A stretch of 34,745 nucleotides of DNA from a virus. Shown piece by piece: positions 670-16,514 of this stretch. The DNA lies in the IMG/VR virus record IMGVR_UViG_3300048672_000954, positions 1-34,745 of that record; one strand, given 5' to 3'. The translations under genes were made by a program, and so were the position numbers. Each line of letters begins with the position of its first letter. Position 1 is the stretch's first letter. The notes below the pieces were generated by a model. The model was not told the origin of the DNA, searched no databases, and worked only from the letters and a program-made list of their open reading frames with translations.

Positions 670-1323
670 CTACAATGTATAATGTAAATCAGCGAATTGA
701 AGTAGGTAATTGATACGATTGGTTAGCTCTATGGCATTAACAATGTTTTTACCTTGTGTTTCTCCTAGTATTTCGGTATTACGTAATTTGACAGCAGTAC
801 CAGACATACAAACCATTAACATTGCTTTTGAGCCTCCTACTTCTGAATAATCGACATCTACTGCTATAATGGCATTGGCTCCTAGTTGTAGGGCTTCTTT
901 ACGTAGCATATCTAAACAAAAGTTTTCTCCATTTTTGAGTTTTGAGGTAAGTGTTTGGGAATTGGTTCCAAACAGGTCTGAAAATCCTGATGAGATTTCT
1001 GATACTAAGCCAGTGCCAAGGACACTTTGAGCAGTGACTAAAGATATAGTATCATACTGCCAGTTTTGGGGAGATTGAGCTGTAACTACAGGAATAGAAG
1101 GCATTAACTCACGAAGCTGTTTTCTTTTGGTCGAAAATTCATCTTTGAATAACGCATAGGATGTAGAATAGGGTAAACGTCCACACTTTTCACAATATCC
1201 AGAAGCTTGGTGTTCTTGGTATTCGTTAATAAGCATTACTTGTAGATAGTTGGCCACAGTAAGACTTGAAAACCTATTTGGGCGAAGAACGGCATTACAA
1301 TTTGGGCAATGGGTGTTTTCCAT
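670..1323 (-). CDS. Zinc-ribbon protein with YbjQ/UPF0145-like domain
   Basis: The 217-residue protein starts with a zinc ribbon (Cys6, Cys9, Cys44, Cys47). From about residue 90 to 185 it has a domain resembling the YbjQ/UPF0145 (DUF74) family, with the features LGTGLVSEI, LRKEALQLGANAIIAVDVDY and a hydrophobic strand before GTAVKL. YbjQ-type proteins are small oligomeric proteins of unclear function, and the Gly-Ala-Asn-Ala-Ile core is typical. The gene lies 11 bp downstream of the repressor on the same strand, so it is probably expressed in the lysogen. It is not a known Mu function and looks like a cargo (moron) gene. The domain call is from motif recognition only. Confidence 0.7.
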   Translation of the reverse strand: MENTHCPNCNAVLRPNRFSSLTVANYLQVMLINEYQEHQASGYCEKCGRLPYSTSYALFKDEFSTKRKQLRELMPSIPVVTAQSPQNWQYDTISLVTAQSVLGTGLVSEISSGFSDLFGTNSQTLTSKLKNGENFCLDMLRKEALQLGANAIIAVDVDYSEVGGSKAMLMVCMSGTAVKLRNTEILGETQGKNIVNAIELTNRINYLLQFADLHYTL

Positions 1324-1334
1324 GATGGTAGGGT

Positions 1335-2144
1335 TTAATATGAACGTATGGTTTGCACTATGTTATAGAGTTCGTAGACCTTTGAAAGGTCCATTTTGTA
1401 GTCGGGGTAATAATCTTTGTTTGGGTTGAGGCTTCGGCAGGTAATTGTGCCTTTTTCTACATCGTGATCTATTATTGATTTGATAACTATGCCGTCTTCG
1501 TGGACAATAATAAAGTTTGGCCATGTATTGTAATGAATTTTGTAACGCCATAGGTCCTTTTCTACACGACGACCTACTACTATATCGCCTGGGCAAATAG
1601 CATTTCGTGAATTGTCGTCCATACTGTCGCCTCTTACTCTTATACTTCTGTAATTGCCTCGGTGTTGTTTTTGAACTATGATAGGATAACGAGGAAGTTC
1701 GCCTAAATACTTTTCGTCTGAATAGCCAGATAAATATCCTGCGTATGCGTAATCTTCTATAAATGGCACTAACATTTGATAGTATCCATTACCAATATCT
1801 GTAAATTCATTTTTTCCTACCTGAAATACAGGAGCATCTTCATTGAGATATGCAATGTGTTCGCCATTCGCTTGGAATTGAGTGAACGGTACTTGATTTT
1901 GAGTATTCGGTATATCATGTTTCAACATTTCACCATCTCCATACATCAACCAATTAGGATTTAGATCAGGATGAAGGGATAAAATTTTTACCATAGAGTC
2001 GGCACTTAAAGCAGATTCCAAGGCTTTTCCTTTAAAATTTTGTACACTCAAACCTAAAGGTGTAAAAAATTTATCCCTTGTAACTTTCTTGTAATCAATA
2101 AATTGCAAAATTCTTTGCTTTATATCGTTTAAATTTTTATCCAT
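1335..2144 (-). CDS. Prophage repressor: N-terminal DNA-binding region plus S24 (LexA/CI-type) peptidase
   Basis: Starting at the ATG at 2144 gives 269 residues. The frame stays open upstream to 2330 but would run through the promoter region, so that longer form is rejected. The N-terminal 70 residues resemble phage helix-turn-helix repressors of Bacteroidota (RILQFIDYKKVTRDKF, then PNWLMYGDGEML). The C-terminal half has the S24 peptidase signature with Ser174 in RGDSMDD and candidate Lys222 in GIVIKS. Ala135-Gly136 is a plausible self-cleavage site, which would make the prophage SOS-inducible. It is transcribed leftward, divergent from the transposition genes. Confidence 0.88.
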   Translation of the reverse strand: MDKNLNDIKQRILQFIDYKKVTRDKFFTPLGLSVQNFKGKALESALSADSMVKILSLHPDLNPNWLMYGDGEMLKHDIPNTQNQVPFTQFQANGEHIAYLNEDAPVFQVGKNEFTDIGNGYYQMLVPFIEDYAYAGYLSGYSDEKYLGELPRYPIIVQKQHRGNYRSIRVRGDSMDDNSRNAICPGDIVVGRRVEKDLWRYKIHYNTWPNFIIVHEDGIVIKSIIDHDVEKGTITCRSLNPNKDYYPDYKMDLSKVYELYNIVQTIRSY

Positions 2145-2148
2145 TCTC

Positions 2149-2179
2149 TTGGTTGAGTATAAAATTTTATCTAATATTG
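2149..2179 (+). promoter_or_regulatory. Candidate early promoter for the transposition operon
   Basis: TTGG (2149-2152), a 19-nt spacer and TAATATTG (2172-2179) approximate the -33/-7 pattern with one mismatch in each box. Its start would lie about 50 nt before the gene at 2237. It faces the repressor promoter, so the two transcripts would overlap and could interfere. Confidence 0.35.
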
Positions 2180-2183
2180 TATC

Positions 2184-2203
2184 GTAGTGAGTGAAACGAC
2201 TAC
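2184..2203. promoter_or_regulatory. Possible operator dyad between repressor and early genes
   Basis: GTAGT (2184-2188) and ACTAC (2199-2203) form a short inverted repeat with a 10-bp centre, between the two facing promoters. This is where a repressor would be expected to bind, but the arms are only 5 bp. Confidence 0.3.
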
Positions 2204-2234
2204 AAAAGTACAAACAAATAAGCCAAATAACAAA
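2203..2234 (-). promoter_or_regulatory. Repressor promoter (Bacteroidota type)
   Basis: On the minus strand TTTG (2231-2234) is followed after 20 nt by TACTTTTG (2203-2210), matching the -33 TTTG / -7 TAnnTTTG consensus. Transcription would begin near 2196 and give a leader of about 50 nt before the ATG at 2144. The same -7 octamer occurs in the promoter at 11750. Confidence 0.65.
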
Positions 2235-2236
2235 GT

Positions 2237-2482
2237 ATGACAAAAGCAGTAATGAATGAGGACTTTGCAAAAACGGAAGAGTTTGAAGGCAAAGAATACC
2301 TGAAAAAAGGCGATTTGACAGATATTGCAACCGTCTTGAATGTTCATCCTAGAACAGTTCAGCAGGTTTACCAGGGGAAGATGAAAAGCGAGTTTATAGC
2401 TGTGGCTATCAAGGAGTTGATTTCTCAAAGAAAGATTTTTCTTTCTCAAAAAATGAAACAATTAGCTGAAAATGGTGCTTAG
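2237..2482 (+). CDS. Small DNA-binding protein, Ner-like position
   Basis: The 81-residue protein has a helix-turn-helix-like stretch at about residues 27-50 (GDLTDIATVLNVHPRTVQQV) followed by a basic helix. It is the first gene of the early operon, directly divergent from the repressor and 2 bp before the transposase, which is the position of ner in phage Mu. Ner down-regulates early and repressor transcription, and a similar job is inferred from position and size only. A second ATG at 2255 is possible. Confidence 0.6.
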   Translation: MTKAVMNEDFAKTEEFEGKEYLKKGDLTDIATVLNVHPRTVQQVYQGKMKSEFIAVAIKELISQRKIFLSQKMKQLAENGA

Positions 2483-11712: not shown

Positions 11713-11780
11713 ATGTCTAGGTAAATTTTGGAGTATTTCAGATTTGTACTACTTTTGAAATGCCCAAAATTTACAGACAT
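11713..11780 (+). repeat. 17-bp inverted repeat around the RNA promoter
   Basis: ATGTCT (11713-11718) plus GTAAATTTTGG (11721-11731) are matched by CCAAAATTTAC (11764-11774) plus AGACAT (11775-11780), with a 2-nt AG bulge. ATTTCA (11735-11740) and TGAAAT (11756-11761) extend the stem. The left arm contains the -33 box and the right arm is the first part of the transcript. The dyad could be an operator in DNA or a hairpin in read-through RNA. Confidence 0.8.
11727..11757 (+). promoter_or_regulatory. Promoter of the structured RNA
   Basis: TTTG (11727-11730), a 19-nt spacer and TACTTTTG (11750-11757) match the Bacteroidota -33/-7 consensus without mismatch. Transcription would start near 11763-11766. 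It is the best promoter match I noticed in the window and has no coding sequence directly behind it. Confidence 0.75.
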
Positions 11781-11946
11781 AGGTCGTAAGACCAATACAT
11801 TACAGCAGACTTTTACCATAGTACAAAGGCGTAGACCTTGTATTATCCAAATAAAAGAAAGCGGTGCTTGTATTACCGTCATTGTTTGAACACAATGGTC
11901 TTTTGTCTGAAAGATTGGGCGCGGGAAATACAACACCGCTTTTTTT
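11764..11946 (+). ncRNA. Candidate pseudoknotted non-coding RNA, about 180 nt
   Basis: This stretch has a promoter at its start, a helix with a U-tract at its end, and no plausible reading frame. Pairings seen on the plus strand are: (a) 5' CCCAAAATTTACAGACA (11763-11779) with TGTCTGAAAGATTGGG (11904-11919), 14 pairs interrupted by an AA/GA mismatch and one bulged A; (b) GGTC-GTAA-GACC (11782-11793), a GNRA-loop hairpin; (c) AATACA (11794-11799) with TGTATT (11839-11844), enclosing AAGG (11826-11829) / CCTT (11836-11839), which share one base; (d) CATTGT (11880-11885) with ACAATG (11892-11897); (e) AAAGCGGTGcTTGTATT (11858-11874) with AATACAACACCGCTTT (11927-11942), 16 pairs with one bulged C. 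Helices (a) and (e) cross, making a pseudoknot. No known RNA family was recognised. It lies just upstream of an antirepressor-like gene. Confidence 0.75.
11858..11946 (+). terminator. 3' helix and U-tract ending the structured RNA
   Basis: The 16-bp helix (e) of the RNA ends in cTTTTTTT at 11940-11946, the form of an intrinsic terminator with an unusually long 52-nt loop. That loop holds both the CATTGT/ACAATG hairpin and the segment that pairs with the RNA 5' end. Whether it stops all transcription, or lets some pass into the gene at 11986, is not visible. Confidence 0.6.
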
Positions 11947-11985
11947 GTTGTACAATGATTAACATTTAAACGCCCAAAAATTCAG

Positions 11986-12489
11986 ATGTTAGTACAAAAC
12001 AATCAGCAAGTATTAAACTTGCAAGTTACCGAAGGTTTGACGGTAGCGGTTCTTCAAGATTCAAATCATGAGTTCTTAATGACTACAGAAGATGTAGCTT
12101 GTGGCTATGGTGTTGCACCAAACAGCATTAGAAGCCACAAAAGTAGAAACAAGGAAGAACTCACAGAAAATGTACATTTCATAAGCGTCGCAATTTGCGA
12201 CACCCCTCTTGGAAGCCCTAGAACATTATGGACTAAAGCAGGTGTAATTCGATTAGGAATGTTCCTGAAAAGCGAAAGAGCTAAGGTATTTCGAGACTGG
12301 GCAGAAAAGGTGATTTTGTCCGTTACTGCTCCAGCAGTCAAGTTGCCTGAAGCACCGAAAAGAAAACATAATCGCTTATCGGAGGCAAGACTAATAGATA
12401 TATTGGTAGATGTAGCCCAAATCCAAGATGATGAGCTAAGAGTAAGAATCGTAAACAAGCTTACAGGAAAGGAGGCATACAATGGCTAA
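11986..12489 (+). CDS. Antirepressor-like phage protein
   Basis: The 167-residue protein has an N-terminal part resembling BRO/antirepressor-type DNA-binding modules of Bacteroidota phages: FLMTTEDVACGYGVAPNSIRSHKSRN, then LWTKAGVIRLGMFLKSERAKVFRDWAE. A C-terminal helical tail (about 125-167) may mediate dimerisation. It could modulate the repressor or late expression. No good promoter lies between the RNA terminator and its start, so read-through from the RNA or early operon is likely. Half-sites GCAAGT/ACTTGC at 12006-12026 lie in its first codons. Confidence 0.55.
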   Translation: MLVQNNQQVLNLQVTEGLTVAVLQDSNHEFLMTTEDVACGYGVAPNSIRSHKSRNKEELTENVHFISVAICDTPLGSPRTLWTKAGVIRLGMFLKSERAKVFRDWAEKVILSVTAPAVKLPEAPKRKHNRLSEARLIDILVDVAQIQDDELRVRIVNKLTGKEAYNG

Positions 12490-12701: not shown

Positions 12702-12734
12702 AAAGCACCGCAAAAGTAGTTTTTGCGGTGCTTT
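12702..12734. terminator. Bidirectional terminator between convergent operons
   Basis: AAAGCACCGCAAAA (12702-12715) and TTTTGCGGTGCTTT (12721-12734) form a perfect 14-bp stem with a 5-nt loop, followed by T-rich sequence on both strands. It separates the rightward early/middle genes from the leftward packaging operon. Confidence 0.9.
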
Positions 12735-13683: not shown

Positions 13684-16113
13684 CTACTTAATTAATAAGC
13701 CCCATCTTAGAAGCAAGTCTAAGAGTTTGAAAAATTTAACAATCTGCAATCCATCACCTTTTTGGTATTCTGCAATAACAGCTACAGGAGTATCCTCGTA
13801 ATACTTTACATATAGGTATCTGTTGAAAGTCTGGTTTTTGGCTTCTGCCTGATACCACACTTCATCGGGCTTATTCAATACGTTTTGAAGCTCCTGCAAA
13901 AGTTCGGGTTCGGCGCTGGTCAAGACTTCGGCAATGCCTTTAATTTTGCGTTTGTTGTAGTCGCTATAATCTAAGCCGTTTTTTCTTAGGAACTCCTCGG
14001 CAGTACCGCTGTACAATTCTCTTGCAGGCTTGTTGGTTACTTCTTTGATTTTGTAATCATCGGGGCCCAAATTACTGAGTAACTTATTAGCTTCGGTTAC
14101 TCTGCTAATGTATTGCTGATTAGCGGTGAATACCTGCTCCTGCTCGGCTCGGTTGATGCCCCAGCCCGATTTGCTAGCTTTTTGAAACTCATCTGAACCA
14201 ATAAACTCCTCAAATGCCTGAATATTCGCTGCTATATCTTGACCTTCAATTTCGGACGCTAACCGAGGTACTATGTAACAGCGACAGTTCCAGCCATTTG
14301 GAGGGTATATTTTTTGCCAAAGTGGATGATTAGCTGGCAAAATAAGTCCGTCGAGAAGGCGGTGCTCTGGTCTTACTCGGTTGTCGTCTACAGTACGATA
14401 CTCCCAGTATGGGAACAAATCGATTTTTGCTTTGAGCCTTTGATACGTTGCTGACGTTTCGCCAACCGCCAGCGCAGTATTATACTCTGTACGCAACCAT
14501 TCGACATTGTGTATTTTGGTAATAAGCGATGCCCTAACACGAAAATCCTCAAAACTTGTAGACTCACGAAATGCCTTGTTGAGCAATTGTGATTCGGCAA
14601 GGGTTTTGATACCTCCAAAACGAAATAGGTTCATTTCGTAGGCGGTCAAAGCATTAGGGTCATCGAACCCGTAATCGATACCCAAAGCAGACAATTTTGC
14701 CTCTTTGGCTTTTGTCCAACCTTGGGAAAATGCTTCCGTTAAATTTTGTACAGTGTACTGGAAAAGGTCAGCATCAAAAGACTTTTTCCCTTTTGCTTCC
14801 CAATACTTTTGTATTAGTTTGTCGTCGTTGAGTGACCCCGATAGATTAAAGGTGTGGGCTTGTCCACAACAGTTCGGTTGAGTCATTGCCCCGATCTTTG
14901 TCGGGGCTTCGAGAAAAAAAGTTTTTGCGGATAAGCCTGTACCTGTGTTATTAGATTTTTGGATTACCTCTATACCAAATTTATCCTTCAACCATGTAGG
15001 GTCAAAGTCGTAAAATGGCATCGCTTGACTGGTGAAAGTCCATAGCTGAGCAATATCCTCGGCTGGCTCAAACTCGAAATGTAGGCCATCTGGTATGATG
15101 CCATGCTTAACCAAAGCAGGAAGCGTAATTTGATTATACATTTGTTCTACCATCTTCATATCGCTTTGCACGCGATACCACAGCAAATCTTGTGAAGCTA
15201 CTTCCTTCGCATTTGAACCTACCTTAGTATCCTGACCTACTACAGCACCCGACAAAATAAGCGATAGTTCGTTTTGACAGGCTTTCATAAGCTCCTGATA
15301 GATTTCGCCTTTGGTTTGAATCTGGTTTGCAAACTCGAAGTTTTCGGCATTGTCGATGATAAAGTATGCCGAACGTCCATAATCTTCCATCATCTTTTTT
15401 GCACGTGCCATCATCTTGGTATCTCGTGTATTAGTCTTAACAACACGAGGTGGAGTAGAAAATATTTCGGCGTGTTCTGACCAATAGATTTGAGCAAAAC
15501 GCTTAATAACAACCTGAGGCACACATTTTTTCAATAAACCTAAAGGCTCTTGTGTATTACGATATTCTAAATACCAAGTGCCAAACTCTGGCATATCTCT
15601 GTAACTAATCCCATTTTGCTGAGTGTAATCCTTAAAAAATAGACCCTCGATAGGATTGATATTTGTACGAGGCATCAAAACACCTGCGATATTTCCTAGT
15701 GTATCGTAGTCTATTTTGACCAAGGAATTACCCCAAAGGATAGAATCTAGTTTTTGTTGTACTAGAAATTTGTGGATAGGGCTATACTCCAAAGCTTCTG
15801 TAGCTTTTTCGTCTACAGTCCCGTCAGATTTCTTAAGGTTAAATTTTGCCGAAAGAGTTTGGGTGAAACGGTTTTCTATTTGCGAGCTTAGAAAGGTATC
15901 GACCAATGTTTTTTCGTAGACATCCATCAATAGGTAAAACGTTGGATTGAGGCTTTGAGCAACACGCAAAGCTTTACGATATTTTTCTATATTTAATACA
16001 AAATCACTTACAGGGCGTGGGTCCCACTCCAAAGGATTTTTTTCTTTAGGCAGAGCCGAAAGCTCTTGTTTTTGATAGCCTAAATAGGCCATTGCTCTGT
16101 TTAAAAGTTCCAT
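13684..16113 (-). CDS. Portal (DUF935) fused to Mu F-like head protein and C-terminal nuclease-like domain
   Basis: The ATG at 16113 gives 809 residues; the frame is open to 16293, but that part overlaps the preceding gene in another frame. Residues 1-400 match DUF935 portals (EWDPRPVSDF, NPTFYLLMDVY, WGNSLVKIDYD, VASQDLLWYRVQSD, PTWLKDKFG). Residues 430-625 match the Mu F/gp30 minor head protein (RVRPEHRLLDG, HPLWQKIYPPNGWNCRC). The end (about 748-809: KPDEVWYQ ... RYLYVKYYEDTPVAVIAEYQ ... RWGLLI) resembles the PBECR-type nuclease-like domains on some F proteins. In Mu, portal and F are separate genes. Overlaps its upstream neighbour by 13 bp. Confidence 0.85.
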   Translation of the reverse strand: MELLNRAMAYLGYQKQELSALPKEKNPLEWDPRPVSDFVLNIEKYRKALRVAQSLNPTFYLLMDVYEKTLVDTFLSSQIENRFTQTLSAKFNLKKSDGTVDEKATEALEYSPIHKFLVQQKLDSILWGNSLVKIDYDTLGNIAGVLMPRTNINPIEGLFFKDYTQQNGISYRDMPEFGTWYLEYRNTQEPLGLLKKCVPQVVIKRFAQIYWSEHAEIFSTPPRVVKTNTRDTKMMARAKKMMEDYGRSAYFIIDNAENFEFANQIQTKGEIYQELMKACQNELSLILSGAVVGQDTKVGSNAKEVASQDLLWYRVQSDMKMVEQMYNQITLPALVKHGIIPDGLHFEFEPAEDIAQLWTFTSQAMPFYDFDPTWLKDKFGIEVIQKSNNTGTGLSAKTFFLEAPTKIGAMTQPNCCGQAHTFNLSGSLNDDKLIQKYWEAKGKKSFDADLFQYTVQNLTEAFSQGWTKAKEAKLSALGIDYGFDDPNALTAYEMNLFRFGGIKTLAESQLLNKAFRESTSFEDFRVRASLITKIHNVEWLRTEYNTALAVGETSATYQRLKAKIDLFPYWEYRTVDDNRVRPEHRLLDGLILPANHPLWQKIYPPNGWNCRCYIVPRLASEIEGQDIAANIQAFEEFIGSDEFQKASKSGWGINRAEQEQVFTANQQYISRVTEANKLLSNLGPDDYKIKEVTNKPARELYSGTAEEFLRKNGLDYSDYNKRKIKGIAEVLTSAEPELLQELQNVLNKPDEVWYQAEAKNQTFNRYLYVKYYEDTPVAVIAEYQKGDGLQIVKFFKLLDLLLRWGLLIK

Positions 16114-16514
16114 GATTTTCTTGGTTGAGAGCCAACAACAAAAGGCGCTGGAGCAGTGTTGTCCTGCGCCAGTGGCCACGTTGGGATAATGAAAGATTTT
16201 TGAATGTCTTTGAGGGCACTGATAGCGTTGTCGTATCGGGTTTGGGCTAATTCCAAATCTACGGATACGTTGGCAACGGCTATGAAATGCCATTTGGCAA
16301 TATCCTTAATATATAAGGTTAGCTCGCCATAGGGCGCACGGTCGTTGCCCTCAGTGGCAAAGATTGTAGCAGTATCGTAGGCAGTCAGATAGCGTGCTAC
16401 GATTTGCTGGGCGGTTAGCAAAGCCTGTGTGACCTTTGCTTCATCGTTTCGAGAAATCTTGTTTTGGATTTCTTCGTACAGATGCGTTTCAAATTCTTCT
16501 TTGGTTACAAACAT
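16101..16514 (-). CDS. Mu gp36-like head-tail adaptor (DUF1320)
   Basis: The 137-residue helical protein begins VTKEEFETHLYEEI and has QALLTAQQIVARYLTAYDTAT and KDIAKWHFI, the typical pattern of DUF1320/gp36 proteins, which are connector-type factors in Mu-like heads. It is 2 bp after the large terminase gene. Normally it follows the capsid gene in Mu, so its place in the packaging operon is a rearrangement. Confidence 0.7.
   Translation of the reverse strand: MFVTKEEFETHLYEEIQNKISRNDEAKVTQALLTAQQIVARYLTAYDTATIFATEGNDRAPYGELTLYIKDIAKWHFIAVANVSVDLELAQTRYDNAISALKDIQKSFIIPTWPLAQDNTAPAPFVVGSQPRKSWNF

Follow-up and report, generated by a model that had tools for sequence, protein, structure and literature searches.

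The DNA analysed here, referred to as the window, is a 34,745-nt stretch of viral DNA (IMG/VR record IMGVR_UViG_3300048672_000954, positions 1 to 34,745), which comes from a Mu-like phage, most likely of a Bacteroidota host. The gene at 11986..12489 on the plus strand, with its ATG at 11986, encodes an antirepressor-like protein of the Bro-N type with 167 amino acids. This product gave several PHROG anti-repressor matches, and its Pfam Bro-N match was below the cut-off. The gene at 1335..2330 on the minus strand encodes a transcriptional repressor-like protein (phrog_4 transcriptional repressor, E 1.7e-9), which may be the object of the antirepressor. In addition to these regulators, the phage encodes a Mu-type transposase and a transposition protein, both found in the PHROG search, and a Mu-type portal. 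The portal protein is a fusion (13684-16293, minus strand) that also includes a Mu F-like domain together with a PBECR2 nuclease-like one, and a YbjQ-like putative heavy-metal-binding protein, perhaps host DNA or cargo, was encoded near the left end (670-1323, minus strand). No DNA similarity to the window was found in phage records, and a single-sequence search of viral contigs returned no close relatives of its Bro-N or MuB-like protein. Among other Mu-like phages, that of Porphyromonas and two of Flavobacterium were examined, and none had an antirepressor annotated at the matching place.

Ahead of the antirepressor gene, a promoter of the Bacteroidota type was read from the sequence on the plus strand at 11727..11757, consisting of TTTG (11727-11730), 19 nt, and TACTTTTG (11750-11757). 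Bacteroidota promoters have the form TTTG-N19-TAnnTTTG, and transcription of the window RNA is predicted to start near 11761-11763. No plausible gene lay in the next 190 nt or so, after which came a hairpin and a U-tract (window 11750-11946). The ORFs overlapping this gap were short and started with TTG or GTG only, and the 78-aa ORF among them, on the minus strand, had no PHROG match; a protein-coding reading of the gap was rejected. Identity of the gap RNA as a tRNA or tmRNA was also rejected. The original prediction, which placed here a consensus promoter driving a stretch that lacks a plausible reading frame and ends in a U-tract, was borne out in all three respects.

Folded core and its complementary segments

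The RNA contains a C4-like core with a three-way junction (11858..11942, plus strand), made up of an outer stem (11858-11874/11927-11942), an inner stem (11876-11879/11921-11924), and a hairpin (11880-11885/11892-11897), after which the antisense segment comes next. The stretch 11858-11945 folded with -32.2 kcal/mol (z = -4.55), and none of 200 shuffles was as stable; for the entire 201-nt RNA the z value was -3.63, with 1 of 200 shuffles as stable. The 3′ arm of the outer stem runs into a U-tract (both within 11934..11946, plus strand), relatives also had a U-tract after the core, and the outer stem is predicted to double as an intrinsic terminator. The inner stem of the window reads ACCGU/GCGGG, in contrast to CCCGU/ACGGG in the group of related cores. 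A small GNRA hairpin, GGUC-GUAA-GACC (11782..11793, plus strand), located between the mimic described below and the core, was present in the sequence and the fold as originally predicted. Another hairpin, GCACCGCAAAAGTAGTTTTTGCGGTGC, was observed at 12702-12731 between the convergent early and late genes, where it is probably a two-way terminator; it contains GCGGTGC, as does the outer stem of the core.

The first nucleotides after the promoter represent a target mimic, GCCCAAAATTTACAGACA (11762..11779, plus strand), equivalent to the a1/b1 site of phage P1. The mimic and the start region of the antirepressor gene, CGCCCAAAAATTCAGATG (11971..11988, plus strand), form an imperfect direct repeat. 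This start region includes the start codon and is the equivalent of P1 a2. The 18-nt antisense segment TGTCTGAAAGATTGGGCG (11904..11921, plus strand; P1 a′ equivalent) can therefore pair with either copy. The duplex energies were -22.1 kcal/mol for antisense:mimic and -20.6 kcal/mol for antisense:target, and in each case 0 of 1000 shuffles was as strong. When position was constrained, P was 2e-4 to 5e-4 for the mimic at the first nucleotides after the promoter and 0.006 to 0.009 for the target in the start-codon region, and of all 62 start-codon regions, taken from both strands, the antirepressor start was the best target in the window. Duplex energy alone was not specific, because a few other 50-nt stretches in the phage reached similar or lower energies, and in an initial unconstrained pairing test, which was position-free and too permissive, the window alone was marginal (27/600). 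One continuous complementary stretch was convincing in the window. The hairpin loop (11886-11891), as read from the sequence, had only short AT-rich matches near the target, and a second site pairing with this loop was not convincing.

The original prediction had described the RNA as pseudoknotted, with two long crossing helices. Both helices stood, and they do cross: helix 1 (11762-11779 with 11904-11921) is the mimic:antisense pairing with the duplex energy given above, and helix 2 (11858-11874 with 11927-11942) is the outer stem of the core. In the minimum-energy fold of the full-length RNA, the mimic:antisense pairing took the place of the outer stem, which was present in the centroid. The pseudoknot as such is better read as two pairings that may alternate or coexist. 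A further partner for the 3′ strand of helix 1 had been overlooked: the start region of the next gene (11971-11988) is complementary to it. The regulatory role suggested for the RNA beside the antirepressor-like gene is probable.

Related cores and co-variation in other phages

Relatives of the core were collected with covariance models. The exact 17-nt pattern of the outer stem gave chance matches only. Because a MAFFT alignment of all cores including the window misplaced the stems, the model was started from three sequences and extended through successive searches. The first model, R1, built from three loci, recovered eight further loci. R1 contained no window sequence, and its best window match was at 11861-11948 (23.2 bits, E = 9e-4). 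All of the models R1 to R3, none of which included the window sequence, placed their best match in the 34.7 kb window at the core, weakly (E 9e-4, 0.0065, and 0.029), and the score of the window fell from 23.2 to 19.8 and 16.7 bits as the model grew and the main subgroup dominated. A DNA pattern of the core, chosen regardless of mimic or target, was found in 71 stretches of viral contigs, and these stretches together with the earlier loci yielded 76 aligned cores with model R2, 70 of them distinct. In the 70 distinct cores, 96% of the cells were paired and 17 of 22 pairs had changed on both sides, and the covariation score was 0.674, compared with 0.164 for shuffles and no more than 0.113 for the slid structure. 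Fitting of the alignment to the structure favours such counts. The covariation check was thus positive in the relatives, with compensatory changes in the outer helix and with the mimic co-varying with the antisense segment. The closest relative of the window protein, L180 (47% identity over 178 columns), had a canonical core directly upstream of its antirepressor gene (77-166 of L180, 66.4 bits). Among 395 scanned genomes from a single Bacteroidota class, two contained the core, and beyond these two genomes a Bacteroidota host range of the group is suggested by promoters and phage relatives. Two C4-type cores per contig were observed in L153, L140, and L188, which suggests tandem or repeated units. 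In contigs of relatives, Rfam also matched an RT-17 RNA at L180 2985-3075 (minus strand, 44.6 bits) and a group II intron at L065 886-977 (plus strand, 43 bits).

The complementarity of mimic, antisense segment, and target was then compared among relatives, with cores found independently of complementarity and with mismatched pairs as controls. Mismatched pairs are a fair control because the upstream and downstream regions were picked by best match. For 19 non-redundant loci, the antisense segment scored a mean of 15.7 against its own upstream mimic and 8.1 against the mimics of other loci, and 9.0 against its own downstream region compared with 7.4 against those of other loci (P = 1.5e-4); the target signal was weaker than the mimic signal across relatives. 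An exact 8-mer of the mimic recurred downstream in 31 of 61 loci (2.3 expected) and in 7 of 19 in the non-redundant set (0.8 expected). Relative to the recurring 8-mer, the start codon was at +11 or +12 in 19 loci and at -1 in 5, and in the window the offset was about +12 to +13. The promoters of the relatives were of the same kind as that of the window and lay 2-4 nt ahead of the mimic, so that the mimic sits at the presumed transcription start. Of 61 relatives, 46 carried an intrinsic terminator, a hairpin with a U-run, that separates the mimic from the core (1.8 expected in shuffles), L150, L180, L027, L039, and L137 among them. P1 had it too (L119, about 381-411), whereas the window had none at this place. 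Structure, layout, and complementarity in the window, together with their conservation and co-variation in relatives, were all obtained by computation.

The genes after the cores encoded Bro-N, KilA-N, AntA, Rha, or ANT-domain proteins, or were short ORFs, which in some loci stood directly ahead of antirepressor-type genes like icd in P1. The C-terminal motif PKRKHNRL... of the window Bro-N protein (12368-12450) was common to the KilA-N proteins of L026, L027, and L028, and it was also found in the KilA-N protein of Winogradskyella phage Peternella_1; a search of 397 genomes gave no match to the motif, with a model that was weak and without positive control. The different N-terminal domains before this common motif may be read as a domain swap in which the RNA unit was kept. 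In Peternella_1, the gap upstream of this gene contained a promoter, TGTACGATAATAAATATT, a terminator-like stem around AATATTTATTGTCGTACA, and the gene start ATGTACGACAACAAA, and thus the same design in unrelated letters. Other KilA-N loci also had this design, and L068 and L069 differed jointly in mimic, antisense segment, and target.

A probable C4-type unit compared with known antirepressor RNAs

Taken as a whole, the element is very probably a C4-type antisense RNA unit controlling the antirepressor, and the window RNA itself is predicted to be a divergent antisense RNA of the C4 type, belonging to a large group outside the reach of the Rfam models. The sequence score contributes less to this placement than do layout, complementarity, core shape, and gene neighbourhood, because the model score was weak, the inner stem deviates, and the mimic is not followed by a terminator. 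The original prediction had taken the RNA for an unrecognised kind. Rfam gave no family in the window at the gathering thresholds and no C4-clan family on the element at E <= 10, and the weak matches in the window (miRNA, snoRNA and similar) were dismissed as chance; in the control, C4 and the a1/b1 element of P1 were found by Rfam with 68.8 and 51.0 bits. The claim of an unrecognised kind was not upheld, since the layout, the core shape, and the target gene are those of the C4 antisense RNA of P1/P7 (clan CL00128).

What follows on transcription, translation block, regulatory direction, and the function of the mimic is inferred. The promoter at 11727-11757 would produce an RNA that starts with the mimic of the antirepressor start region and ends at the intrinsic terminator formed by the outer stem. 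The antisense segment (11904-11921) would bind the antirepressor mRNA at its start region and so block translation, which would help to maintain lysogeny, and the window RNA thus probably restrains antirepressor synthesis in the lysogenic state. No promoter-like site was found between core and gene in 61 relatives, which makes it probable that this one promoter also serves the gene, as in P1; the antirepressor mRNA could then come from read-through of the terminator, or from another copy of the phage. Antirepressor freed from this block would inactivate the repressor and probably cause the lytic switch. The mimic can hide the antisense segment, and by competing for it would tune the amount of free antisense RNA; it may serve as a decoy or may affect termination. 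A tentative extension, possible rather than probable, is that the locus is a built-in pair of antisense and decoy in which the mimic is a self-made sponge and the ratio of decoy to C4 sets the threshold for leaving lysogeny. In P1 and most of the relatives, the terminator after the mimic could release a separate short decoy RNA, while the window mimic, which would remain attached, could be a cis switch on the core.

The same features might also be explained by a cis-acting leader or attenuator at the 5′ end of the antirepressor mRNA, in which the mimic:antisense pairing decides the fate of the terminator at 11934-11946 and no trans-acting antisense RNA is needed. The folds agree with such a leader, the minimum-energy fold having this pairing and the centroid the outer stem, and so does the probable read-through into the gene, but the match of the antisense segment to the gene start region in the window and its relatives is left unexplained, and the homologous arrangement in P1 acts as an antisense RNA (PMC12197685, PMC5320573). 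We consider this leader unlikely. Another reading takes the repeats as operator sites in the DNA for a regulatory protein: a direct copy at the promoter, a second at the gene start, and a third that is inverted. It would fit the overlap of the first copy with the presumed transcription start and of the second with the gene start, but is highly improbable given that the inverted copy has a fixed place within a covarying RNA core and that the letters vary from phage to phage while complementarity is kept. The lack of an Rfam match and the crossing of the two helices would suit a pseudoknotted RNA of a new kind with no relation to C4, yet the core shape, gene neighbourhood, and trio of mimic, antisense segment, and target are those of P1 C4 and its relatives, which leaves very little room for this idea.

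As a C4-type unit, the locus indicates that RNA control of antirepressors on the C4 principle occurs in Mu-like and other phages with promoters of the Bacteroidota type, where dozens of divergent C4-type versions, missed by the tested Rfam models, lie ahead of KilA-N, Bro-N, AntA, and Rha genes. Since antisense segment, mimic, and target have to fit one another, immunity specificity might be predictable from the sequence of the RNA. With the mimic conserved and a terminator behind it, the role of the P1 a1/b1 site becomes testable by comparison.

The closest known system is the C4 RNA of phages P1 and P7 (RF01695; a1/b1, RF03163). C4 acts as an antisense RNA on the antirepressor operon, where its loops a′ and b′ pair around the ribosome binding site (PMC5320573, PMC8546580, PMC12197685, PMC11143913). 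In P1/P7, C4 is a substrate of RNase P, which matures its 5′ end, and it represses the antirepressor in trans (PMC11143913, PMC5320573). C4 has been described in Proteobacteria and phages, and c4-a1b1 in Gammaproteobacteria and phages (Weinberg et al. 2010, PMC2864571). The P1 record lists in order the promoter P1c4, the putative C4 target sites a1 and b1, the C4 RNA, a2 and b2, icd, and ant1, and the window likewise has promoter, mimic, core, target, and antirepressor. P1 C4 folds as the same three-way core with the antisense segment ahead of the closing strand, and its target is likewise an antirepressor. In contrast to the two sites a and b of P1/P7, the window shows one continuous complementary stretch, and the outer stem of its core is followed by a U-tract. 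Moreover, icd lies between C4 and ant1 in P1, whereas the antirepressor gene of the window comes directly next, with no icd-like gene, and the terminator found between mimic and core in P1 and most relatives is missing. The window matched neither the RF01695 nor the RF03163 model.

The c4-2 RNA (RF02944, clan CL00128) was matched by two of the looser relatives, L026 (45.1 bits) and L038 (44.3 bits), which have the same trio ahead of KilA-N genes. The window and the checked members of the main Bacteroidota-type group matched neither c4-2 nor C4 (RF01695). The sar RNA of phage P22, by comparison, presumably has neither the C4 core nor a mimic. It is a small phage RNA that represses translation of the antirepressor by pairing with the ant mRNA (PMC12197685).
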